From Desulfuromonas sp. TF (GTDB taxonomy: Bacteria; Desulfobacterota; Desulfuromonadia; Desulfuromonadales; ATBO01): 36,870 bases of DNA. Position 1 is the first letter of the stretch, and every line of letters starts with the position of its first letter. A program made the translations under genes and the position numbers. The notes beneath the pieces were generated by a model. The model was not told the origin of the DNA. It searched no databases and worked only from the letters and a program-made list of their open reading frames with translations. Shown here piece by piece: positions 1,095 through 34,715 of the stretch. The DNA is taken from contig NZ_KI421419.1 of assembly GCF_000472285.1 (NCBI RefSeq), positions 81,343 through 118,212 of the forward strand, read 5' to 3'.

Positions 1095-2366
1095 ATGGAC
1101 CCACTCTTTTTAAAATACGGGACCGAATCCTTCCCCTGCCCTCTTTCCGGTGCCCGGGTGCTGCTCCCGGACCTGCCGGCGCCGCCGGAAGATCCTGAAG
1201 CGCTGATCCGGTCGGCTCTGGACGCTCCTCTGGGGACGCCGCCCCTGGAGGAGATCATCCGGCCGGGGGAGAAGGTGACGATCGTTACCTCGGACATCAC
1301 CCGCTATACCGGCAGTGAAGTCTACCTGCCGATCCTCCTCGACCGCCTGAACGGCGTCGGTGTCGCCGACGGGGACATCGAGGTGCTGATCGGCCTGGGC
1401 ATTCACCGGAAGCAGACCGAGACCGAGCACCGCAAAATCCTGGGACCGGCCTTCGGGCGGGTGAAGGTCACCGACCACGACTGCGACAACCCGGCGGAAC
1501 TGGTCCTGAGGGGGGAGACCCCGGGGGGCATTCCAGTTGTGATCAACAAACGAGTGGCGGAGGCCGACCGGGTCATCGTCACGGGCACCGTCGGATTTCA
1601 CTATTTCGCCGGCTTCGGCGGCGGCCGCAAGGGTCTCGTCCCCGGAGTCGCCGGGCGGGATACCTGCATGGCCTCCCATTTCGCCGTCTTCAATCCGCCG
1701 GCGATCGGGGGCCGCAATCCCCGGGCGGCCACGGGCGTACTGGAAGGGAATCCGGTGCACGAGAACATCCTCGCCGCCGCCCGCATGGTGGAGCCCGATT
1801 TCCTTCTCAATACGGTCCTCTCTCCGGAGAAGAAGATCCTGGATGTTTTCTGCGGCGAACTGGAACAGGCCCACCTGGCCGCCTGTGAACAGGTCCGCCG
1901 GCTCTACGCCGTTCGCCTCGATGATCCCGCCGATCTGGCCGTTGTTTCCTGCGGAGGCTATCCCAAGGACATCAACTTCATCCAGTCGCATAAGGCCCTG
2001 GACTACGGCGTGAACGCCCTTTGGAAAGGGGGTACGATCATTCTGCTGGCCGCCTGCGGCGACGGGTTCGGAAACAAGACCTTTTTCGACTGGTTCCGCC
2101 ACCAGGATCTGGACGATTTCGAGTCGGCCCTGCGCGAGCGCTACGAGATCAACGGCCAGACCGCCTACTCCACCCTGATCAAGGCCCGCCGCTACCGGGT
2201 CATCCTGGTCAGCGAACTGGGCGATGAGGAAACCTGCAGAATGGGGATGGAAAAGGCCTCGGACCTTGACGAAGCCCTCAAAATGGCGTATGAAAAGCTT
2301 CCCCCGAATCCCGCCGTGGTGGTTATCCCCGACGGCGGGACGGTGTTGCCGGTAATAAAGCGGTGA
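1095..2366 (+). CDS. larA: Nickel-pincer lactate racemase, LarA family (DUF2088)
   Basis: A 423-residue LarA-type 2-hydroxyacid racemase, expected to interconvert L- and D-lactate in the cytoplasm using the nickel-pincer nucleotide cofactor. Residues known from Lactiplantibacillus plantarum LarA are present with the right spacing: His104 (family His108), His169 (His174), Lys179 (Lys184, covalent cofactor attachment) and His195 (His200, nickel ligand), within the motif HYFAGFGGGRKGLVPG. Asp67 and Arg70 match the substrate/cofactor-binding DxTR. ATG 1095 is chosen because AAGGCGG lies 8 nt upstream and the family N-terminus starts here. The cofactor genes larB, larC and larE are not in the window. 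Adjacent glcD and glcF support lactate as substrate, though LarA homologues can act on other 2-hydroxyacids. Confidence 0.9.
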   Translation: MDPLFLKYGTESFPCPLSGARVLLPDLPAPPEDPEALIRSALDAPLGTPPLEEIIRPGEKVTIVTSDITRYTGSEVYLPILLDRLNGVGVADGDIEVLIGLGIHRKQTETEHRKILGPAFGRVKVTDHDCDNPAELVLRGETPGGIPVVINKRVAEADRVIVTGTVGFHYFAGFGGGRKGLVPGVAGRDTCMASHFAVFNPPAIGGRNPRAATGVLEGNPVHENILAAARMVEPDFLLNTVLSPEKKILDVFCGELEQAHLAACEQVRRLYAVRLDDPADLAVVSCGGYPKDINFIQSHKALDYGVNALWKGGTIILLAACGDGFGNKTFFDWFRHQDLDDFESALRERYEINGQTAYSTLIKARRYRVILVSELGDEETCRMGMEKASDLDEALKMAYEKLPPNPAVVVIPDGGTVLPVIKR

Positions 2367-2427
2367 TCAGTGATCGGTGATGAGTAAAGGGTTTTCCACT
2401 GATCACCAATCACTGATCACTCGTCAC
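2363..2427. repeat. Heptad inverted-repeat array between larA and glcD
   Basis: Left arm: GTGATCA, GTGATCG, GTGATGA from 2363, with the larA stop codon TGA (2364-2366) inside the first heptad. Right arm 2398-2420 is complementary to 2363-2385 at 21 of 23 positions, with a 12-nt loop; further partial units continue to 2427. As RNA it would form a long hairpin directly after larA. There is no T-run, so it is not a typical intrinsic terminator. The glcD ribosome-binding site (AGAAGGA) lies just after the array. Confidence 0.9.
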
Positions 2428-2440
2428 AGAAGGATTTCAA

Positions 2441-3823
2441 ATGCTCGACCCTCGCATCATCCAGATCCTCCGAGACATCGTCGGCGCCGATAACGTCTCC
2501 ACCGACAAGGCCGACCTGATCTGCCATTCCTATGACGCCACTCAGCAGAAGCATCTCCCCGACGTGGTGGTCTATCCCGCCACGGCCGCCGAGATCAGCC
2601 TGATCCTGAAAATGGCCAATACCGAAAAGGTTCCGGTTTTTCCCAGGGGCGCCGGCAGCGGCTTCACTGGCGGCAGCCTTCCCACCAAGGGGGGGATCGT
2701 GCTGGTCACCTCGCGGATGGACCGGATCCTGCGCATCGACGAGGAGAACCTGGTCGCCGAAGTGGAGCCGGGGGTCGTCACCGAACAGTTTCAGCAGGCG
2801 GTGGAGAAGGTGGGGCTCTTCTATCCCCCCGACCCCGCCTCCCTCAAATTCAGCACCCTTGGCGGCAATGTCGCCGAGTGCGCCGGCGGACCGCGATGCG
2901 TCAAGTACGGCGTGACCAAGGACTACATCCTCGGCCTGGAAATAGTCACTCCGCAGGGAGACATCATCCGCACGGGGGGACAGACCATGAAGGGGGTGGT
3001 CGGCTACGACTTGACCAAGCTCATGGTCGGCTGCGAAGGGACCCTCGGGGTCATCACCAGGATCATCATCAAGCTGCTGCCGCTCCCCGAAGCGAAAAAG
3101 ACCATGCTGGTGCTCTTCGACTCCATCGACGGCGCGGCGCAGGGCGTCTCGGCCATCATCCGCGGCAAGATCATCCCCACCACCCTGGAGTTCATGGACG
3201 CCACCACCATCGACTGCGTTCGCCAGGCTACCGGCCTGCAGATCCCCGCGGCCGCCCGCGCGGTTCTGATCATCGAAGTCGACGGCGACCGCGATCTCAT
3301 CGAACGCCAGGCGAAGCGCATCCTGGACATCGTCGCGCCCCTGGGCGTGGTGGAGACACGGGTGGCGCAGACGCCGGCTGAAAGCGAAGACATCTGGAAG
3401 GTGCGGCGGCAGGTCTCCCCCAGCCTGCGCAAGGTCAACCCCGACAAGTTCAACGAGGATATCTGCGTCCCCAGAAGCCGCGTTCCGGAAATGATCCGTG
3501 CCATCGAGGCCATCGCCTCGAAGTATGAGATTCCCATCGTCAATTTCGGCCATGCCGGCGACGGCAACATCCATGTCAACGTGATGATCGACAGCTCCGT
3601 CCCCGGAGAACTGGAAAAGGCGGAGAAGGCCATCGAGGAGATCTTCGCCGAGACCCTGAAGCTCGACGGCACCATGAGCGGCGAACACGGCGTCGGCATC
3701 ACCAAGGCCCCCTATATCCCGATGGAGCTCGATTCCGCGGCCGTGGCCTATATGAAGACGATCAAACGCGCCCTCGATCCGAACAATATTCTGAATCCCG
3801 GGAAGATATTTCTGGAAGACTAA
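2441..3823 (+). CDS. glcD: FAD-linked oxidase, D-lactate/glycolate dehydrogenase subunit GlcD-like
   Basis: A 460-residue flavoprotein of the GlcD/D-lactate dehydrogenase family, expected to oxidise a 2-hydroxyacid (D-lactate most likely here) and pass electrons to the iron-sulfur subunit encoded next. The N-terminal PCMH FAD-binding domain (about residues 38-215) carries PRGAGSGFTGG. The C-terminal FAD-oxidase domain carries GHAGDGNIHVNV and SGEHGVG near residues 370-425, typical of this family. Length is normal. ATG 2441 is preceded by AGAAGGA. No signal peptide is visible, so the protein is probably cytoplasmic or peripheral to the membrane. It follows larA after a 74-nt heptad array and precedes the GlcF-like gene after another array of 94 nt. 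Glycolate is the main alternative substrate. Confidence 0.92.
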   Translation: MLDPRIIQILRDIVGADNVSTDKADLICHSYDATQQKHLPDVVVYPATAAEISLILKMANTEKVPVFPRGAGSGFTGGSLPTKGGIVLVTSRMDRILRIDEENLVAEVEPGVVTEQFQQAVEKVGLFYPPDPASLKFSTLGGNVAECAGGPRCVKYGVTKDYILGLEIVTPQGDIIRTGGQTMKGVVGYDLTKLMVGCEGTLGVITRIIIKLLPLPEAKKTMLVLFDSIDGAAQGVSAIIRGKIIPTTLEFMDATTIDCVRQATGLQIPAAARAVLIIEVDGDRDLIERQAKRILDIVAPLGVVETRVAQTPAESEDIWKVRRQVSPSLRKVNPDKFNEDICVPRSRVPEMIRAIEAIASKYEIPIVNFGHAGDGNIHVNVMIDSSVPGELEKAEKAIEEIFAETLKLDGTMSGEHGVGITKAPYIPMELDSAAVAYMKTIKRALDPNNILNPGKIFLED

Positions 3824-3829
3824 GGAGCA

Positions 3830-3908
3830 GGGGGTCAGGGGGTAGGGACTGGGGGCTGGGAGAAACAAGCGATTCTCTCTAGCCCCTAGCCTCCAGCCCC
3901 TACCCCCC
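3830..3908. repeat. G-rich heptad inverted-repeat array between glcD and glcF
   Basis: The array begins 6 nt after the glcD stop TAA. G-runs recur every 7-8 nt, and 3838-3862 is complementary to 3883-3907 at 21 of 25 positions, with a 20-nt loop. The left arm has five runs of three or more G separated by 2-3 nt, which also meets the usual intramolecular G-quadruplex pattern on the coding strand. The right arm is C/T-rich and ends 9 nt before the glcF start, leaving no visible Shine-Dalgarno. Confidence 0.88.
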
Positions 3909-3917
3909 TTTTTCACA

Positions 3918-5180
3918 ATGAGCAAACATAAAAACCTGAAAGATTTCGAAGAGCAGATCCGGCAGTGCGTCAAGTGCGGCGCCTGCCAGGCCCACTGCCC
4001 GGTTTTCGGCGAGCAGAAACGGGAGTCGGTAGTGGCCCGCGGCAAGGTGGCCCTGGCCCACGCCCTCCTCGAGCAGGAAGTGGAGCTGGACGAACGGCTG
4101 ATCGCCGACATGTCCAAGTGCCTGCTCTGCGGCTCCTGCTTCGACAAGTGCCCCAACCTCGTCCCCACCGATGAAATCGTCATGGCCACCCGGAGGGAGA
4201 TCGCCGAGCGAAAAGGGCTCACAACCTTCGGCAAGGCGGTGTCCACCGTCCTGCGAAACCCGGCCCTGATGAACTTTATGGCTAAAGGGGGCAGCGCCTT
4301 TTCCCGCCTCCTCTTCAAGAAGGTTCCGGATCAGAGCGGCCTGCGCCTGCGCTTTCCCCTTCCCTTCGTCGCTAAGGACCGCACCCTCCCGGAGGTTGCC
4401 GCCAAGCCTTTCCGCGACCGGCATCCCGAGTTCATCGCCGGCGATCCCGGCATGCCGACGGTCGCCTTCTTCACCGGGTGCATGATCAATTACATGTATC
4501 CGGAAATCGGCGAGGCGACGCTGGCGATCCTGCGCTACATGGGCATGAATATTCTCATTCCGCAGGACCAGGGATGCTGCGGGCTGCCGGCTCTGTCTTC
4601 CGGCGATGCGGCTGCGGTCGAGGACCTCTCGAACAAGAACCTTCTCGCCTTCGGCAAACGGGAACCCGACGTCATCGTCACCTCCTGCGCCTCCTGCAAC
4701 ATCGGCATGGGGAAACACTTCGCCGCTCTCGGCCCAGAGCATGAGCGGCTCGCCGCCAAGGTCACGGACATCCATGTCTTCCTGCAGCGGTACGGGCTGG
4801 CGGAGAAGCTGGCGCAGCTGCCGAAGAAGGAGGTCTTCCAGAGAGTGACCTACCACGACCCCTGCCACCTGCGCACCCAGGGGATCACCCGGGAGCCGCG
4901 GGAGATCCTGAAAAGCCTGCCGGCGGTTCGCTTCGTGGAGATGGAGGGGGCCGACCGCTGCTGCGGCCTTGGAGGGACCTTTTCCGTATACCACTACGAT
5001 ACGAGCAAGAAGATCGGAGCCCGCAAGGCCCCCGGCATCGAGAAGAGCGGAGCCGACCTGGTCGCCAGCGCCTGCCCCGGCTGCATGATGCAGCTGCAGG
5101 ACACCATCGCCCACGCCGGCCTGCCGCAGAAGGTCATTCACATTCTCGAGCTGGTGGCCCGGGAACTCCCCGAGAAATGA
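3918..5180 (+). CDS. glcF: Iron-sulfur (CCG-domain) subunit of 2-hydroxyacid dehydrogenase, GlcF-like
   Basis: A 420-residue heterodisulfide-reductase-like iron-sulfur protein. Two ferredoxin-type [4Fe-4S] motifs lie at Cys17/20/23/27 and Cys68/71/74/78. Two CCG domains follow, with CCGLPA in the first and CCGLGGTF plus ACPGCM in the second. It is expected to take electrons from the flavin subunit encoded upstream and deliver them to the quinone pool or another carrier. ATG 3918 follows a pyrimidine-rich stretch with no recognisable ribosome-binding site, so translation may rely on another mechanism or on the upstream structure. The 3' end overlaps the next gene by 4 nt (ATGA), indicating translational coupling. 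Confidence 0.93.
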   Translation: MSKHKNLKDFEEQIRQCVKCGACQAHCPVFGEQKRESVVARGKVALAHALLEQEVELDERLIADMSKCLLCGSCFDKCPNLVPTDEIVMATRREIAERKGLTTFGKAVSTVLRNPALMNFMAKGGSAFSRLLFKKVPDQSGLRLRFPLPFVAKDRTLPEVAAKPFRDRHPEFIAGDPGMPTVAFFTGCMINYMYPEIGEATLAILRYMGMNILIPQDQGCCGLPALSSGDAAAVEDLSNKNLLAFGKREPDVIVTSCASCNIGMGKHFAALGPEHERLAAKVTDIHVFLQRYGLAEKLAQLPKKEVFQRVTYHDPCHLRTQGITREPREILKSLPAVRFVEMEGADRCCGLGGTFSVYHYDTSKKIGARKAPGIEKSGADLVASACPGCMMQLQDTIAHAGLPQKVIHILELVARELPEK

Positions 5181-8107: not shown

Positions 8108-9124
8108 TCAACGGCCGGATCGCGAACTTCCAGAGTGACGTTTGTGGAAGTCACGGCCACCGCTGCCGCCCCGATGAATCCCTCCTCGATCCGAATTTCT
8201 GAACGTATCGGGTCGCCTCTGGAAGCGCTGCATGCTGCTTTTGGTGCCCGGCCCGCGTATCACCCGATCATCCGAGCCACGGCGGACATCTCGACGGTTG
8301 TGGAAGTCGCGCCCACCGCTGATGCCCCGATGAATGCCTCCTCGATTCAGGTTCCTGAAGGTATCGGGGCGCCTCTGGAACCGCTGCATATCACTCTTTG
8401 CTCTCGGTCCGCGTATCACCCGATCATCCGGGCCCCGGCGGGAATCGCGACGGATATGACCGTCGCCAGGGCGCACAATGACGCCGCCTCGGTGCGAACG
8501 AATGAAGCCGTCATGATGATGCTTGCCGCGTAAATCCTTCACTCCTTTGTGGCGATGGATGCCATGGAAATGAAGATGATGTCCCCTGGCATGCTTAAAG
8601 TGACGCGTTCCGGAAAAATGCACGATGTTGAAGCTGAAGAAAATCCGAGAAGAGTAAAACCAGGGGTCCGGGTAATGATAGAACGGATAGTAAGCGTACC
8701 AATCTCCATAACCATAAGGATGGATATAATGTTTTTCAACGACTCGTTCGACGGCGCGCCCACTGTCCGCGGCCGCCTCACCGGGTACGATCAGCCAGGC
8801 ACCGTCGGGCTGCCGGCAGGCCGTGCCGTAAGCCGGTTCCTCAACGCCGCCGATGATTACCGTGGTGACAAATTCCCGGCAATACTGACCGGCGGAATTT
8901 TGAAAGGTGTTCACCGGCACCACGCTTCCTGAACGCGAGGTGTCCGGGTTCACCCACGCCGAGGCCTCGTTCGTCCGGTTGTTTTCCAGGGCATACTGAA
9001 AGGTCTCGGACATGGCCTGATGCTCTGAATCCTCGAGCCCGGTGCCATATTCCTGCCCCCAAAGGGGCGTATAATCGAACATGGCCCCAACCATTACCAA
9101 CAGTAGGAGGGCCGTGCGTTTCAT
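8108..9124 (-). CDS. Secreted protein with surface-antigen-like domain and Arg/His/Gly-rich repeated tail
   Basis: The 338-residue product starts with a signal peptide (MKRTALLLLVMVGAMF, cleavage near WGQE). ATG 9124 is preferred over 9148 because GGGGAG precedes it and the signal peptide begins there. Residues about 25-120 resemble the C-terminal module of 17-kDa surface antigens: a Met-Ser-Glu-Thr helix, EASAWVNPDT, VVPVNTFQN, CREF and YGTACRQPDGAW. The middle is Tyr/His/Phe-rich. The last 150 residues are strongly basic and contain two copies of a 52-residue unit (DDRVIRGP ... RRPDTFRN ... RGGIHRG). The tail might bind metals, polyanions or the cell surface; no function is established. Codon use seems ordinary. 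Confidence 0.8.
   Translation of the reverse strand: MKRTALLLLVMVGAMFDYTPLWGQEYGTGLEDSEHQAMSETFQYALENNRTNEASAWVNPDTSRSGSVVPVNTFQNSAGQYCREFVTTVIIGGVEEPAYGTACRQPDGAWLIVPGEAAADSGRAVERVVEKHYIHPYGYGDWYAYYPFYHYPDPWFYSSRIFFSFNIVHFSGTRHFKHARGHHLHFHGIHRHKGVKDLRGKHHHDGFIRSHRGGVIVRPGDGHIRRDSRRGPDDRVIRGPRAKSDMQRFQRRPDTFRNLNRGGIHRGISGGRDFHNRRDVRRGSDDRVIRGPGTKSSMQRFQRRPDTFRNSDRGGIHRGGSGGRDFHKRHSGSSRSGR
8140..8451. repeat. Two tandem 156-bp copies inside the secreted-protein gene
   Basis: GTGGAAGTC recurs at 8144 and 8300, and GCGTATCACCCGATCATCC also recurs 156 bp apart, so the period is 156 bp (52 codons, in frame). The copies have diverged by scattered substitutions, giving two basic repeat units in the protein's tail. 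Confidence 0.85.
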
Positions 9125-28315: not shown

Positions 28316-29728
28316 TCAAGGGATAATAAGTCCGATGAGGTCGAGCAGGGGCCCGGGGAACATGCCGAGAGCCAGGGTCGCGGCCAGGCAGATGGCAAGG
28401 GCGGTGTGTTCGGAAGCGCCGCCTCGGGCATGTTCGACCTCGCATTCATAGGTCATGAACATGTAGACGATGACCCGCAGGTAGTAGTAGAGAGAGACAA
28501 GGGAAGCGAGGATGCCGAGGACGGCCAGCCAGCCGTAGCCGGCTTCGATGGCGGCCCGGAAGATGGCGAATTTGCCGACGAAGCCGATGGTAGGGGGAAT
28601 GCCGGCCAGGGAGAAGAGAAAGACCGCCAGGACGGCGCAGCGGAAGGGGAAGCGCCAGCCGATGCCGTGGAAATCATCTAGGTTCTGCGGCTCTCCCTTC
28701 GGTCCGGAGAGGGAGGCGATGACTCCAAAGGCCCCGAGGTTGGCGACGGAGTAAGCGACCAGGTACAAGGCCACGGCGCGGTTCCCGGACGCCCCGCCAG
28801 CGAGCAGGGCGAGAAGGGTATAGCCCATGTGCACCACCGAGGAGTAGGCGAGCATCCGCTTGATGTTCTCCTGGTTCAGGGCAGCCAGGGTGCCGAAAAC
28901 CATGGAGAGGGCGGCCAGGGCCCAGAGAAGCGGTGCCAGGTCTCCGCGCGCGGGCATTCCCGCCAATACGGTGATCAGGGCGGCGAAGACCGCCCCCTTG
29001 GATCCGGTGGACAGGATACCGGTCACCGGCGCCGGCGATCCCTGGTAGACGTCCGGTGTCCAGAGGTGGAAAGGGACCAGGGAAACCTTGAAGCCGATCA
29101 CCACCAGGAGCATCCCCCAGCCGAGAAGCCCGATGGGCCGCATCTGCGCTCCTGAGGCGATACCAGCCATCGCCTCAGGCAGATGGAAGGTGCCGCTGGA
29201 GGTGTACACCAGGGCGATTCCAAAGGCGAGGAAGCCGGTGGCCACCGCCCCGAGGACGAGGTACTTCAGCCCCGCCTCGGCCCCCTGTGGATCGTCCTTG
29301 TGGAAGGCGATCAGGATATAAAGCACCAGGGTGAACGCCTCCAGGCCGAGGAAGAAGCCGACCAGGGAGGTGGCGGACGAAAGCAGGGCCATCCCGGCGG
29401 CGGCGAAGAGGATCAGGGCGGTATATTCCCCGCCGGCGAAGCGGCGTTCGTGGGCATAGCGCACCGAAAGGAGCAGGGTGATCGCAGCCGTCAGCGACCA
29501 GAGGGCGGTGAAGAAACGGGCGAAGGGTCCGGCGCCGTACATCCGGGTGATCTCCGCCACCGGCGGCGTATGGAAGGCGGCCGCGGCTGCCGCAGCCAGG
29601 GCGATCGCCGTCCCGAGCAGAACCAGGCGGCTGCGGCGCGGCCACCAGGCCCCGAGGAGCAGCACTCCTGTTGAGCCGAGAGCGAGGATCAGAATCGGAA
29701 AGAGGGCGGAGAGATCGGCTCGAGTCAC
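28316..29728 (-). CDS. nuoN: NADH-quinone oxidoreductase subunit N
   Basis: A 470-residue antiporter-like membrane subunit of respiratory complex I. Fourteen or so hydrophobic helices are visible. The family features include FFLGLEAFTLVLYILIAF (Glu in helix 5), LGAVATGFLAFGIALVY, and LLVVIGFKVSLVPFHLWTPD with its conserved lysine. It contributes to proton pumping. The start is GTG 29728, with AAAGGAGGG upstream, overlapping nuoM by 4 nt. It is the last nuo gene in transcription order. Confidence 0.96.
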   Translation of the reverse strand: MTRADLSALFPILILALGSTGVLLLGAWWPRRSRLVLLGTAIALAAAAAAAFHTPPVAEITRMYGAGPFARFFTALWSLTAAITLLLSVRYAHERRFAGGEYTALILFAAAGMALLSSATSLVGFFLGLEAFTLVLYILIAFHKDDPQGAEAGLKYLVLGAVATGFLAFGIALVYTSSGTFHLPEAMAGIASGAQMRPIGLLGWGMLLVVIGFKVSLVPFHLWTPDVYQGSPAPVTGILSTGSKGAVFAALITVLAGMPARGDLAPLLWALAALSMVFGTLAALNQENIKRMLAYSSVVHMGYTLLALLAGGASGNRAVALYLVAYSVANLGAFGVIASLSGPKGEPQNLDDFHGIGWRFPFRCAVLAVFLFSLAGIPPTIGFVGKFAIFRAAIEAGYGWLAVLGILASLVSLYYYLRVIVYMFMTYECEVEHARGGASEHTALAICLAATLALGMFPGPLLDLIGLIIP

Positions 29729-31233
29729 GGCATCCCTCCTTTAAGTGCCAGCAGGGATGTCCCTCCCAGCAGGCGCTGAACCGGCTCGCGGATCGGAGCC
29801 AGGAAAGGCTCGGGGTAGAGCCCGAGCCAGAGAACGAGCAGGGCCAGCGGCACCAGTACCAGCATCTCGCGCGGCTCCAGATCAACCCAGCATTCGGCAT
29901 GCTTCATCGGTCCGGGCGGACCCCAGATCACCCCCTGGACCGCGCGCAGCATGTAGGCGGCGGCGAACACGACCCCGCCCAGGGCCAGGGCGCCCCAGAG
30001 GGGGTTGACGCGGAAGACGCCGAGCAGAATCAGGATCTCGCCGGCAAAGTTGTTCAGCCCGGGCAGGCCGAGGGAGGCCAGGGAGAAGAAGAGGAAGAAG
30101 AAAGAAAGGATCGGCACCCGTCCCCACAGGCCCCCCAATTGCCCCAGATCCCGGGTCTCGGCCCGGTGCTGGATCATCCCGGCCATGATGAAGAGCGCTC
30201 CGGTGGTGATCCCGTGATTGAACATCTGCAGCACGCTCCCCTCCATGGCGATTGCATCCCAGGCGCAGAATCCCAGCACCATGAAGCCGACATGAGCCAC
30301 CGAGGAGTAGGCGATCAGACGTTTGAGATCGTGCTGAGCATAAGCGATCCAGGCGGCGTAGAAGATGCCGGTCAGGGCAAGGACCGCCAGCAGCGGAAAG
30401 GAGGCCTGGGCCATCTCCGGGAAGAGAGGAAAGGCGATGCGGATTAGACCGTAAAGGCCGGTCTTGAGCAGCAGCCCGGCCAGATCGAGGGAGCCGGCCG
30501 TCGGCGCCTCGGTATGGGCGTCGGGAAGCCAGGTATGCAGGGGAACCAGCGGCACCTTGACCACGAAAGCAAGCAGGAAGGCCGCGTAGAGCCACGGCTC
30601 GATGGCGCCGGGGATATCGGTCTGCTGCAGCGCCGCCAGGGCGAAGGTGTACTCTCCTGTCTGCTGCCCGTGCAGCAGGTAGAGGGCGATGATTGCCAGG
30701 AGCATCAGCAGGCTGCCGGCCATGGTGAAGATGAAGAACTTGACCGCCGCATAGACCCGCCGCTCGTGTCCCCAGACACCGATGAGAAAAAACATGGGGA
30801 TGAGCATGACCTCCCAGAAGAGATAGAAAAGGAAAAGGTCGAGGGCGAGGAACACCCCCATGATCCCCCCCTCCATGAACAGGAGCATGGAGAAGAAAAT
30901 CGCCACCTGGTATTTGCGGCGCCAGGAGATGACGATGGCCAGCAGCTGGGTGAGGGCGGTCAGCAGGACCAATAGCAGGGAAATGCCGTCCAGTCCCAGG
31001 GTGTAGCGGATGCCGAAAGGGATGATCCACGGATGGTCTTCGTACCGAAGCCAGCCCCCCTGACCGCCGCCGGTGACGAAGAGCCCGACCGCCGTCACCA
31101 GAATAGCCAGGGTGGTCACCAGGGCGATCCAGCGGCTCACCCGCGGATGATGCCGCAGCAGAAGGCAGAGCGCCGCGGCCGCCATCGGCAGGACGATGAG
31201 AGAGGAGAGCCAGGGGAAGGAGTCCAGGTTCAA
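29725..31233 (-). CDS. nuoM: NADH-quinone oxidoreductase subunit M
   Basis: A 502-residue antiporter-like complex I subunit with about fourteen helices. Typical segments are FYLFWEVMLIPMFFLIGVWG (helix 5 Glu), FVVKVPLVPLHTWLPDAHTE with the conserved Lys, and DLKRLIAYSSVAHVGFM. The start appears to be TTG 31233. It lies at the very edge of a heptad array and has no Shine-Dalgarno, because the array's C/T-rich arm reaches the start codon and even codons 2-3 keep the 7-nt phase. The next in-frame ATG would delete part of the first helix. It overlaps nuoN by 4 nt. Confidence 0.95.
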   Translation of the reverse strand: MNLDSFPWLSSLIVLPMAAAALCLLLRHHPRVSRWIALVTTLAILVTAVGLFVTGGGQGGWLRYEDHPWIIPFGIRYTLGLDGISLLLVLLTALTQLLAIVISWRRKYQVAIFFSMLLFMEGGIMGVFLALDLFLFYLFWEVMLIPMFFLIGVWGHERRVYAAVKFFIFTMAGSLLMLLAIIALYLLHGQQTGEYTFALAALQQTDIPGAIEPWLYAAFLLAFVVKVPLVPLHTWLPDAHTEAPTAGSLDLAGLLLKTGLYGLIRIAFPLFPEMAQASFPLLAVLALTGIFYAAWIAYAQHDLKRLIAYSSVAHVGFMVLGFCAWDAIAMEGSVLQMFNHGITTGALFIMAGMIQHRAETRDLGQLGGLWGRVPILSFFFLFFSLASLGLPGLNNFAGEILILLGVFRVNPLWGALALGGVVFAAAYMLRAVQGVIWGPPGPMKHAECWVDLEPREMLVLVPLALLVLWLGLYPEPFLAPIREPVQRLLGGTSLLALKGGMP

Positions 31234-31341
31234 GGTAAAAGGTCCGAGGTTAAAGGTTAAAGGATCGAGGATAAAGGTAAAAGGATCGAGGATAAAGGAG
31301 AAGACAGGATTCCTTTAACCTTTATCCTTTTACCTTGTACC
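31227..31341. repeat. Long heptad array spanning the nuoL-nuoM junction
   Basis: On the plus strand GG occurs at 31227 and then every 7 nt through 31297, eleven consecutive units such as GGTAAAA, GGTTAAA, GGATCGA and GGATAAA. After a short centre, CC recurs every 7 nt at 31312, 31319, 31326, 31333 and 31340. The outer parts are complementary (31231-31256 with 31312-31337, about 22 of 26). The phase runs into the last nuoL codons on one side and the first nuoM codons on the other. Confidence 0.93.
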
Positions 31342-33207
31342 TATATAATCCACCAGCATCCATGCGAGTATCAGCAACAGCCCCCAGGCAAAGCCGCCCA
31401 GATACGTATGCAGGCGGCCTGTTGCGGTCCGGCGCAGCGACTGGCCGAGCCCCATCAAGGCACGGCCGGTCCCCTCCAGCAGGCCGTCGATGCCGCGCAC
31501 GTCCGTCCACTGCCAGAAGAAGTGGGCGAGGAGGTTGAAGGGGCGCAGCACCACTGCCTGAACCAACCGGTCGGCCTCCCATCCGCTCAACAGGAAGGCT
31601 TTGAGTGCACGGGGGCGCTCACCGGGAAACGGGATATAGCGCCGGCGGGCCAGGGCCCAGCCGCTGAAGAAAATGGCAACGGCAACCCCGGTCAGCCACC
31701 ACTCCAGGGAATGGGATGCATGCATTTCGAAACCGCCCTGGGCGCCCAGGAAACGCTCCAGGGTTCCATCGCCTCCCCAGGCCGCCGGCAGATTGAGCAG
31801 CCCGCCGAAGAGCGCGAGCACCGCCAGAGGCGGAAGAGTCCAGCGCATTACTGCAGGCAGGTGGTGATGTTCCTCGCCGCCGGCGGGGTGGCGCGCCTGT
31901 CCGGCGAAAACCAGATAGAGCAGTCGAAAGGTATAGAAGGCTGTGAGCAGGGCGGTAAAGAGGCCGATCCCCCAGAGAACACGGTGGAAGGGGTCGCCGG
32001 CGGCGAAAGCGGCCAGCAGGATGGCATCCTTTGAGAAGAATCCGCCGGTCAGGGGAGCTCCGGCCAGGCACAGGGCTCCGGCGAGGAAGGTCCAGAAGAC
32101 CAGCGGAGACCTGCGAGCCAAGCCGCCCATCCGGTAGATGTCATTCTCCCCCGTCAGGTGGATGGCGCACCCTGCTCCCATGAAGAGCAGGGCCTTGAAA
32201 AAGGCGTGGGTGATCAGGTGGAACATCCCCCCCGCCACGGAGCCGAGACCGACGGCCAGGAACATGTAGCCGACCTGGCTCATGGTCGAGTAGGCGAGGA
32301 CCCGCTTGATCTCCCGCTGCGCCAGGGCGCAACTGGCTGCATAGAGGGCGGTTATGGCGCCGACCGCGGCTATCCAGGCCATTCCCGCCGGAGAGAGGGA
32401 AACGAGGGGAAAGAGGCGGGCCAGCAGGTAGACCCCGGCAGTCACCATGGTGGCGGCATGGATCAGGGCCGAGACCGGGGTCGGACCGGCCATGGCGTCC
32501 GGAAGCCAGGTCATCAGCGGCAGCTGCGCTGATTTTCCGCAGGCGCCGGCGAGCAGAAGCAGGGTGAGCAGGAAGAGAGCCTCCGGGGGGAAGCCGGCCG
32601 CCGCCTGGTTGATCCGGTCGATGGAAAGAGTGCCGGTGAGAGCGAAGAGCCAAAGCAGGGCGATGCCGAGGAAGACGTCGCCGGTGCGGGTGACCAGGAA
32701 CGCCTTGCGGCCGGCGTCGGCGTTCTTCTCTTCCCGATACCAGTAGCCGATCAGGGCGTAGGAGCAGAAGCCTACCCCCTCCCAGCCGAGAAACAGGACA
32801 AGGAGGTTGTCTGCCAGCACGATGGTCAGCATCGCGAAGACGAAGAGATTGAGCAGGGCGAAGAAACGGGCGTAATCACGTTCTTCGGCCATGTAGCCGA
32901 TGGCATAGAGGTGTATCAGGGTTGATACGAAGGTGACCATCAGGGTCATGGCGGCCGAAAGGGGATCGAAGACGATCTCCACCGGCACCTGCAGCTCGCC
33001 GCTGGCCAGCCATGTGTAAAGTGCCGTTCGGGTTCCCCCCTCCTTCGCCAGCGGCCACAGCAGAAGCGTCGCCAGGGTAGCCAGTGCCACGGCCCCGACG
33101 GCGAGCGCCTCGGCCAGTCGCCGCGGCAGTTTCCGCCCGACGACCACGTTCAACGTGGCCGCGGCCAGGGGAAGCAGGGGTATGAGGAAGAGCAGTTTCG
33201 GATTCAT
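31330..33207 (-). CDS. nuoL: NADH-quinone oxidoreductase subunit L
   Basis: A 625-residue largest membrane subunit of complex I. Recognisable segments are FVFAMLTIVLADNLLVLFLG and WEGVGFCSYALIGYWY (helix 5 Glu), QLPLMTWLPDAMAGPTPVSA with its conserved residues, and REIKRVLAYSTMSQVGYMF. A long amphipathic C-terminal region ends in a final membrane anchor, as in E. coli NuoL. ATG 33207 is chosen because it overlaps the nuoK stop by 4 nt and gives the usual N-terminus (LLFLIPLLPLAAATLNVVVG). The longer frame upstream is antisense-like. Its last codons are part of the heptad phase of the following array. Confidence 0.96.
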   Translation of the reverse strand: MNPKLLFLIPLLPLAAATLNVVVGRKLPRRLAEALAVGAVALATLATLLLWPLAKEGGTRTALYTWLASGELQVPVEIVFDPLSAAMTLMVTFVSTLIHLYAIGYMAEERDYARFFALLNLFVFAMLTIVLADNLLVLFLGWEGVGFCSYALIGYWYREEKNADAGRKAFLVTRTGDVFLGIALLWLFALTGTLSIDRINQAAAGFPPEALFLLTLLLLAGACGKSAQLPLMTWLPDAMAGPTPVSALIHAATMVTAGVYLLARLFPLVSLSPAGMAWIAAVGAITALYAASCALAQREIKRVLAYSTMSQVGYMFLAVGLGSVAGGMFHLITHAFFKALLFMGAGCAIHLTGENDIYRMGGLARRSPLVFWTFLAGALCLAGAPLTGGFFSKDAILLAAFAAGDPFHRVLWGIGLFTALLTAFYTFRLLYLVFAGQARHPAGGEEHHHLPAVMRWTLPPLAVLALFGGLLNLPAAWGGDGTLERFLGAQGGFEMHASHSLEWWLTGVAVAIFFSGWALARRRYIPFPGERPRALKAFLLSGWEADRLVQAVVLRPFNLLAHFFWQWTDVRGIDGLLEGTGRALMGLGQSLRRTATGRLHTYLGGFAWGLLLILAWMLVDYIGTR

Positions 33208-34034: not shown

Positions 34035-34109
34035 CCGTGAGGTGTGAGGAGTGAGGGGTAAGGAGAAAAGGCACGTATCGCCTCACTCCTTACGCCTCAC
34101 GCCTCACGG
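34035..34109. repeat. Heptad inverted-repeat array between nuoI and nuoJ
   Basis: Plus strand units: GTGAGGT, GTGAGGA, GTGAGGG and GTAAGGA from 34037, then CCTCACT, CCTTACG, CCTCACG and CCTCACG from 34081 to 34108. The arms match at about 24 of 30 positions. In the direction of transcription the array begins in the nuoI stop codon (TGA, 34104-34106) and ends 7 nt before the nuoJ ATG. Confidence 0.92.
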
Positions 34110-34634
34110 CATATTGGTTTTTATATCCACCGGCCCGTACTCGTCTTCGTTTCCGCCCCGGGGATTGACCACTCCGATGCCTGCGTGGCGGTAGTAATTG
34201 TATTCGCTGTCCTTCCCGCCGTGGTCCACCAGCAAATCCTCCTTTTCGTAGACCATATCGATCGAGGCGTACTTGGAAAACTCGTAGTCGGGACTCATCT
34301 GGATCGCCCAGGTCGGACAGGCCTCGGCGCAGAGGCCGCAGTAGATGCAGCGGGCAAAATTGATGCGGAACCAGGTGGCATACCGGCGGCCGTTCGGCTG
34401 CTCCGCCGACTGCATGGAGATGCAGTCGACCGGGCAGGCGGCGCTGCACAGGTAGCAGGCGACGCAGCGCTCGCCGCCGTCCGGATCGCGGGTGAGAATG
34501 ATCCGCGCCCGGTATCGCGGCGGCGGCTGCCGCTTTTCTTCCGGGTACTGGATCGTCACCGGTTTGCGGAACATGTTCCGCAGCGTCACCCAGAAGGGCT
34601 GGACGGTTCCTTTTAGATCGCGTAGGAGAGGCAT
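34104..34634 (-). CDS. nuoI: NADH-quinone oxidoreductase subunit I
   Basis: A 176-residue iron-sulfur subunit carrying clusters N6a and N6b. The two ferredoxin motifs are CVACYLCSAACPVDC and CIYCGLCAEACPTWA. ATG 34634 is chosen: it gives the normal N-terminus (MPLLRDLKGTVQPFWVTL). The longer start at 34667 would read heptad-repeat DNA. The only Shine-Dalgarno-like bases (AAGGA) are supplied by the heptads themselves. Confidence 0.95.
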   Translation of the reverse strand: MPLLRDLKGTVQPFWVTLRNMFRKPVTIQYPEEKRQPPPRYRARIILTRDPDGGERCVACYLCSAACPVDCISMQSAEQPNGRRYATWFRINFARCIYCGLCAEACPTWAIQMSPDYEFSKYASIDMVYEKEDLLVDHGGKDSEYNYYRHAGIGVVNPRGGNEDEYGPVDIKTNMP

Positions 34635-34641
34635 AACTGCT

Positions 34642-34715
34642 GTCCTTTGTCCTTTGTCATTGGTCATTTGTTTAAAAGTTTTTCCACAAATGACAAGTGA
34701 CTAATGACCAATGAC
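34642..34715. repeat. Heptad inverted-repeat array between nuoH and nuoI
   Basis: Plus strand units: GTCCTTT twice, GTCATTG and GTCATTT (34642-34669), and on the other side AAATGAC, AAGTGAC, TAATGAC and CAATGAC (34688-34715). The arms match at about 24 of 30 positions. In transcription order it starts 4 nt after the nuoH stop (TAA, 34720-34722) and ends 7 nt before the nuoI ATG. Confidence 0.92.

Follow-up and report, generated by a model that had tools for sequence, protein, structure and literature searches.

The nuoL-nuoM junction

We analyzed a stretch of 36,870 nucleotides (the window, G000:C8:81343-118212) from a 4.40 Mb genome of the Desulfuromonadales. It contains a nuo cluster in which nuoL is followed by nuoM on the minus strand (Table 1). 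The probable ATG of nuoL at 33207 overlaps the stop codon of nuoK, and the reading frame is open to 33351 (a position counted from the translation). The gap between nuoL and nuoM is filled by repeats with a 7-nt step. As an earlier note on this DNA had described, GG recurs on the plus strand at 31227, 31234 and onward to 31297 (eleven units), and CC recurs at 31312, 31319, 31326, 31333 and 31340 (five units), each series in a single phase. The same note had the repeat phase invading both genes, and this was also borne out. The TTG start of nuoM lies inside a heptad unit, and the final in-phase CC on the coding strand spans codons 2-3 (AAC CTG). At the other gene, two units fall within the last codons of nuoL (GGT ACA AGG TAA), with the stop codon inside a unit.

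Beyond the earlier note, we found that the GG and CC arrays are the two arms of a single palindrome. On the coding strand, the shorter arm reads AGGTACA AGGTAAA AGGATAA AGGTTAA AGG on the nuoL side and is followed by the loop; the C-terminus of NuoL (...Y I G T R stop) falls within this first arm. The longer arm consists of CCTTTAT CCTCGAT CCTTTTA CCTTTAT CCTCGAT CCTTTAA (units 1-6) and CCTTTAA CCTCGGA CCTTTTA CCTTGAA CCTGGAC (units 7-11), and a second period of 21 nt, equal to three units, runs through it (3.2 copies at 89%). The period-7 score of the array was 15.5; one block-shuffled copy of 2,036,870 bases contained no period-7 segment scoring at least 12. A search of Rfam with positions 30800-31700 gave nothing at gathering score, the best hit having 26 bits (E 0.017) compared to a gathering score of 100. 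When the whole genome was searched for copies, the element had only partial matches apart from itself. There were 66 of these at E of at most 10, many being the same places counted on both strands, and the best by E (2e-8) had 75% over 83/115 bases.

Table 1. Positions of genes, repeat arms and palindromes in the window.
Feature	Position	Strand	Remarks
nuoM	29725..31233	-	Pfam Proton_antipo_M 4.1e-71; TTG start 31233-31231
nuoL	31330..33207	-	Pfam Proton_antipo_M and Proton_antipo_N; stop TAA 31332-31330
Longer heptad arm	31223..31302	.	GG each 7 nt on plus strand; mRNA CC-rich (CCTTTAT, CCTCGAT, CCTTTTA ...)
Shorter heptad arm	31312..31342	.	CC each 7 nt on plus strand; mRNA GG-rich
nuoM start segment	31226..31242	-	17 nt around TTG; predicted partner of nuoL end
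nuoL end segment	31326..31342	-	17 nt, stop codon within
Heptad palindrome, GTGAGG-type	34037..34108	.	nuoI-nuoJ; nuoI stop included
Heptad palindrome, TTGTCAT-type	34641..34715	.	nuoH-nuoI; Shine-Dalgarno (SD)-like GGACA before nuoI ATG 34634
Heptad palindrome, GTGATCA	2363..2421	.	Stop of ORF 1029-2366 within first unit
Heptad-like palindrome, CTGGGGG / CTAGCCC	3828..3907	.	Tandem Repeats Finder: period 8 for one arm

Besides the one at nuoL-nuoM, the window holds four heptad or heptad-like palindromes. The conserved start of nuoI is the ATG at 34634, and the heptad arm before this gene adds an in-frame ATG at 34667, together with GGACAAAGGACA, which resembles an SD (34634-34667). Elsewhere in the window, a 156-nt direct repeat is present in two copies (8137-8453, 82%). 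A second nuo-like antiporter and NuoI-like gene set, with a NuoM that is 47% identical, was found at G000:C13:231050-237341.

Predicted pairing and the start of nuoM translation

The 17-nt segments at the end of nuoL and the start of nuoM are reverse-complementary at 16 of 17 positions; the maximum among 20,000 random stretches was 15. When coding bases only were compared, 7 of 8 were complementary. In the predicted fold, the nuoM TTG was paired with a probability of 0.77-1.0 in 4 of 5 sequence contexts, and with only 0.37-0.62 in the shortest. Removal of the 5' arm gave pairing of 0.03, 0.09 and 0.78 for the three bases of the TTG. A shorter fold (z -3.12) favored an inner register in which the TTG is mostly free. 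At the nearest relative (locus L038), nuoL end and nuoM start were complementary at 7 of 17 positions; the first two bases of its TTG were open (0.04 and 0.08) and the third was paired at 0.69. Masking of the nuoM start is therefore not conserved in this sister.

The TTG is the sole in-frame ATG, GTG or TTG between the upstream in-frame stop and nuoM codon 13, and the residues after it lead into an FPWL-like motif found in relatives. No SD core is present at SD distance upstream of this TTG, in agreement with the earlier note. However, its further claim that nuoM must start by an unusual route was not supported. Among 311 genes with one possible start (codon-model calls), an SD core was present in 54%, compared to 23% in random sequence; since it was absent from the other 46%, a special initiation route for nuoM is unneeded. 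A superseded count on cruder ORFs gave 40% of 168 genes and 25% in random sequence, and nuoM is outside both sets because it has a further in-frame start within 90 nt. An SD core was lacking in 6 of the 12 single-start genes behind a heptad array. In the nuo cluster, SD cores precede nuoH, nuoI, nuoK and nuoN; nuoM and nuoJ, each behind heptads, have none. Taken together, nuoM probably initiates at the TTG without an SD. Its initiation is perhaps coupled to nuoL, in which case ribosomes finishing nuoL would open the stem. What is unusual at nuoM is the predicted pairing of its start with the nuoL stop region.

Heptad arrays across the genome

Genome-wide counts covered the window and 100 other stretches, 2,036,870 bases in all. 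The main gene calls came from a codon model, were made in this analysis and are uncurated. Our first calls were length-based and took long false ORFs, for instance at window positions 2417-4318 on the minus strand. With the codon-model calls, 63 intergenic arrays scored at least 12 for period 7. The multiples of 7 gave 36, 18 and 9 (periods 14, 21 and 28), and the periods from 4 to 15 that are not multiples of 7 gave 0-8 each. The cruder calls gave 51 intergenic arrays for period 7 compared to 0-5 for other periods. Of 83 period-7 arrays, 39 were wholly intergenic, 35 straddled a gene end and 9 were inside a called gene. These 83 arrays had 44 different consensus units, in contrast to the single fixed unit of the Xanthomonas and Beggiatoaceae reports. 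An inverted partner (arm score z of at least 4) was found in 48 of 85 scored heptad gaps. Under a stricter, conservative control that took flanks from the same array families, 8 of 30 arrays had inverted arms at p of at most 0.02. The nuoL-nuoM array thus belongs to a large group of palindromes, built of heptad repeats, that occupy gaps between genes in this genome.

An array scoring at least 8 started within 12 nt of the stop codon at 61 of 1528 gene ends, and 19 of these arrays abut the stop directly. At those 19, the last 7 coding bases matched the repeat phase at 4.26 of 7 positions, compared to 2.67 when the ends of other genes were used. For all 61 gene ends the match was 2.72 compared to a control of 2.13, with 0 of 5000 resamples as high; the cruder calls gave 2.96 and 2.19. 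The match at the 19 gene ends indicates that entry into coding ends is habitual for the arrays and not peculiar to nuoL-nuoM. Seeding of arrays by the stop codon was considered and is not claimed: the stop was repeated 7 nt downstream in 10 of 61 cases compared to 6.5 expected, with no clear excess.

Heptads were present in 73 of 947 co-directional gaps, 12 of 193 convergent gaps and 1 of 147 divergent gaps. The divergent gaps differed from the co-directional ones (Fisher p 0.0003) and the convergent gaps did not (p 0.55). This near-avoidance of divergent gaps ties the arrays to gene 3' ends. The cruder calls had suggested an equal frequency across orientations (48/734, 15/284 and 11/235), which the divergent count from the codon model undid. 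Palindromic arms (z of at least 4) occurred in 40 of 73 co-directional, 8 of 11 scored convergent and 0 of 1 divergent gaps. Mismatches between arms were G-U in 63 cases and A-C in 78 in co-directional gaps, where 141 informative mismatches limit the power of the wobble test, and 12 and 12 in convergent gaps. The cruder calls gave 49 and 53, so that the absence of a wobble bias was unchanged with the codon model. With no G-U bias among the mismatches, there is no bias toward the RNA strand.

The nuo junctions of relatives

We searched 58 genomes, our own included, and read the best 30 loci for each protein. The relatives found were Desulfuromonadales, the nearest being the sister with 79% NuoM identity. 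No close congener of our genome was found, and the polarity of events therefore rests on this single relative. Between nuoL and nuoM, a period-7 array scoring at least 8 was present at 7 of 30 loci (own included), whereas scoring of other periods between 4 and 12 gave 0 to 3 loci. This set retains L015 and L027, whose upstream ends are doubtful. Units varied by locus (CTTGAAC, AGGTGAC, GATGTGA, CAGGAGC-like and others), and two congeners had about 2 (L029) and about 8 (L030) GATGTGA units. From a set of 80 loci we also read 64 and found 3 with an array. Two (L038 and L040) belong to genomes already counted, and the third is from a Schekmanbacteria record in which the adjoining upstream ORF is short. 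Upstream of nuoM, this last locus (L084), from another phylum, has a TTCAGGC heptad palindrome.

The comparison of sister junctions that the earlier note had proposed gave a divided answer. The nuoM start TTG AAC CT, within heptads, is common to our genome and L038, in which the heptads extend two units into nuoM and an in-frame TAG is located five codons upstream of the TTG. In contrast, the nuoL end is not shared. Because they are shared, the nuoM-start bases may be older; the end of nuoL, judged by comparison with one relative, looks as if it had been written by the array as an inverted copy. An origin of the repeats in the coding sequence beside them, as the earlier note had it, is a possibility. 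The phase enters both coding ends, but the nuoL end seems to be a product of the array and not its seed. The terminal residues of both NuoL and NuoM vary among relatives.

Arrays scoring at least 8 (own included) were also present at 11 of 30 nuoH-nuoI loci and 6 of 30 nuoI-nuoJ loci; extraction was faulty at L173 (nuoH-nuoI gap) and at L184 (nuoH end), and both loci were retained in the set of 30. One genus had both empty and filled nuoH-nuoI sites, with a 4-nt gap in G058 (L256) and heptad elements in its congeners G050 (L168), G013 (L170) and G030 (L172). Two of its species have a palindrome of about 80 nt built of TTGTCAT/TTGTCCT, and a fourth species has a long CAACGGA array that reaches the nuoI ATG. 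The elements of L168 and L170 fold at -36.4 and -40.5 kcal/mol, respectively, and their arms stay complementary as the units change. No target duplication was seen by eye between empty and filled sites. The differences in unit number and presence among congeners indicate that arrays turn over quickly, and this genus would be a good system in which to observe the birth of an array.

Other features were observed at these junctions. At L015, the frame called upstream of nuoM closes with a TCTGGTA heptad run that halts at TAG with no array beyond; this is possibly an array relic turned into protein, in a locus with a doubtful upstream call. At L011 and L041, a 9-codon ATG ORF between nuoL and nuoM, recognized by eye, has a TGA that overlaps a possible nuoM TTG start, and it is explained by a frameshift error or else encodes a leader peptide. 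A different palindrome of high GC content (GGGGCGA...CGCCCC type), in which period 7 is absent, was present between nuoI and nuoJ at L168, L169, L170, L172, L173 and L178.

Origin of the heptad palindromes

We give about even credence to the explanation that slippage and fold-back copying at the DNA level made the heptad palindromes, which are tolerated and have coupling as a consequence. From the observations above we infer the following course. Arrays would lengthen by replication slippage in 7-nt steps (and at nuoL-nuoM also in 21-nt steps), and the nascent strand would fold back and copy the opposite arm by template switching, which would make the arms complementary. The unequal arms at nuoL-nuoM (11 and 5 units) indicate that such arm correction is incomplete. 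Arrays would persist downstream of genes, where they are least harmful, but not in the promoter gaps of divergent gene pairs. Their growth would enter coding ends and be tolerated there, because a 7-nt unit, not being divisible by three, gives a stop in every frame when it contains TAA or TGA, and because both proteins, NuoL and NuoM, are variable at their termini. At nuoL-nuoM, copying may have extended into both genes, so that the final nuoL codons now repeat the nuoM start, inverted and nearly unchanged. In the transcript, the TTG of nuoM is predicted to be base-paired to the region of the nuoL stop and would be released by ribosomes finishing nuoL; nuoM would then initiate without an SD, as in RNA-unfolding translational coupling. 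It is possible, and we propose it tentatively, that arrays which grow from coding ends and are copied back write a masking stop region, so that translational coupling arises as a by-product of copying errors and is not selected.

A second explanation, which we regard as rather unlikely, is that an RNA hairpin has been selected behind genes to protect the transcript or to set the relative expression of nuoL and nuoM, the heptads being incidental to the stem. Several observations would suit it: heptads are located behind gene 3' ends whether the gap is co-directional or convergent and are almost absent from divergent gaps, the stem predicted at nuoL-nuoM is strong (z -3.12), the nuoH-nuoI arms of L168 and L170 remain complementary despite a change of unit, and three nuo junctions in the window carry a heptad palindrome. 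The divergent gaps fit both explanations, as tolerance of the arrays and a role in the transcript would each account for them; the fall of the divergent share to 1 in 147 led us to weight copying lower and the hairpin higher. However, a selected stem would be expected to accept G-U pairs, and no G-U excess was found among the mismatches. In addition, one congener within a related genus lacks the element at nuoH-nuoI, the sister does not mask its nuoM start, and close to half of the gaps with heptads have no palindromic arms.

It is improbable that the elements are REP- or MITE-like mobile palindromes, inserted beside stop codons and moved by a RAYT-like (Y1) transposase. Two Y1_Tnp matches in the genome exceed the cut-off, and both the 61 gene ends with a nearby array and the presence or absence of elements among congeners would agree with mobility. 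However, the 44 units in 83 arrays speak against it, near-identical palindromes with a shared core were not found (the nuoL-nuoM element having partial matches only), and the empty and filled nuoH-nuoI sites had no target duplication by eye. We attach similarly little likelihood to binding of the arrays by a protein (such as S1, Csp or Csr) that recognizes a pattern once in every 7 nt and promotes SD-independent initiation. The 3' arm beside the nuoM TTG is pyrimidine-rich and SD-less, and a comparable proposal has been made for TAACTGA repeats in a part of PMC4679880. In contrast to what such a protein would need, no unit sequence is common across sites, and arrays occur in convergent gaps (12/193), where no start lies downstream. 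Chance periodicity or assembly error, for which we found nothing in favor, is scarcely credible, as shuffled sequence had no period-7 segment of such a score and the separately assembled sister has heptads of its own at nuoL-nuoM.

Relation to known repeats and systems

The cyanobacterial STRR repeats are a further likely relative. According to an earlier survey, as cited in a part of PMC4679880, heptad repeats outnumbered every other class of longer simple repeats in most of the genomes covered. GGGAATC and GGGGA(T/C)T heptamer repeats are described for Xanthomonas and Nostoc in sections of Rehm 2015 (PMC4692102), and arrays with inverted partners have already been published there for Xanthomonas. 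In the portions of that account that we cite, there is one G-rich unit per organism and the focus is on quadruplexes; in contrast, our genome has many units, and its arrays include stop and start codons. In Geobacter metallireducens, class 3 sites with GGGACCG elements were reported in 2009 (PMC2700814, in part). That delta-proteobacterium also has tandem heptads, pairs of sites on opposite strands, and elements both within and between genes. However, the sections cited interpret them as putative regulator sites or RNA elements with a fixed consensus, whereas the unit here varies by site. The TAACTGA repeats of Beggiatoaceae (PMC4679880, 2015) are likewise heptads directly upstream of starts that are mostly SD-less, but they have one fixed unit according to the same parts of that source.

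RNA-unfolding translational coupling is exemplified by rpmI-rplT, at +52 nt, in a portion of a review (PMC12548453). As in that account, the downstream start at nuoL-nuoM is predicted to be masked by a structure involving the upstream gene and to be freed by upstream-gene ribosomes. In contrast, the spacing here is 96 nt, the masking is not seen in the sister, and coupling is at the stage of a prediction. Template switching creates and maintains hairpins (PMC8794818), and quasipalindrome mutations are documented in E. coli (PMC7202029). The mechanism in these two sources yields reverse-complement copies and mends arms, as required for the copying that we favor; heptad arrays are not the subject of the parts cited. 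A search of the open literature gave neither a description of matched arms combined with many units in one genome nor one of a palindrome that links a stop to a start.

In our judgment, errors in DNA copying account for the heptad arrays better than a dedicated switch does. In this genome the units are numerous, the arms match and arrays extend into coding ends, and a congener of a relative has an empty site; these four features allow a mutational origin to be told apart from a function of RNA or protein. Should the pairing at nuoL-nuoM operate as predicted, it would show how neighboring genes can become coupled through a copying error.
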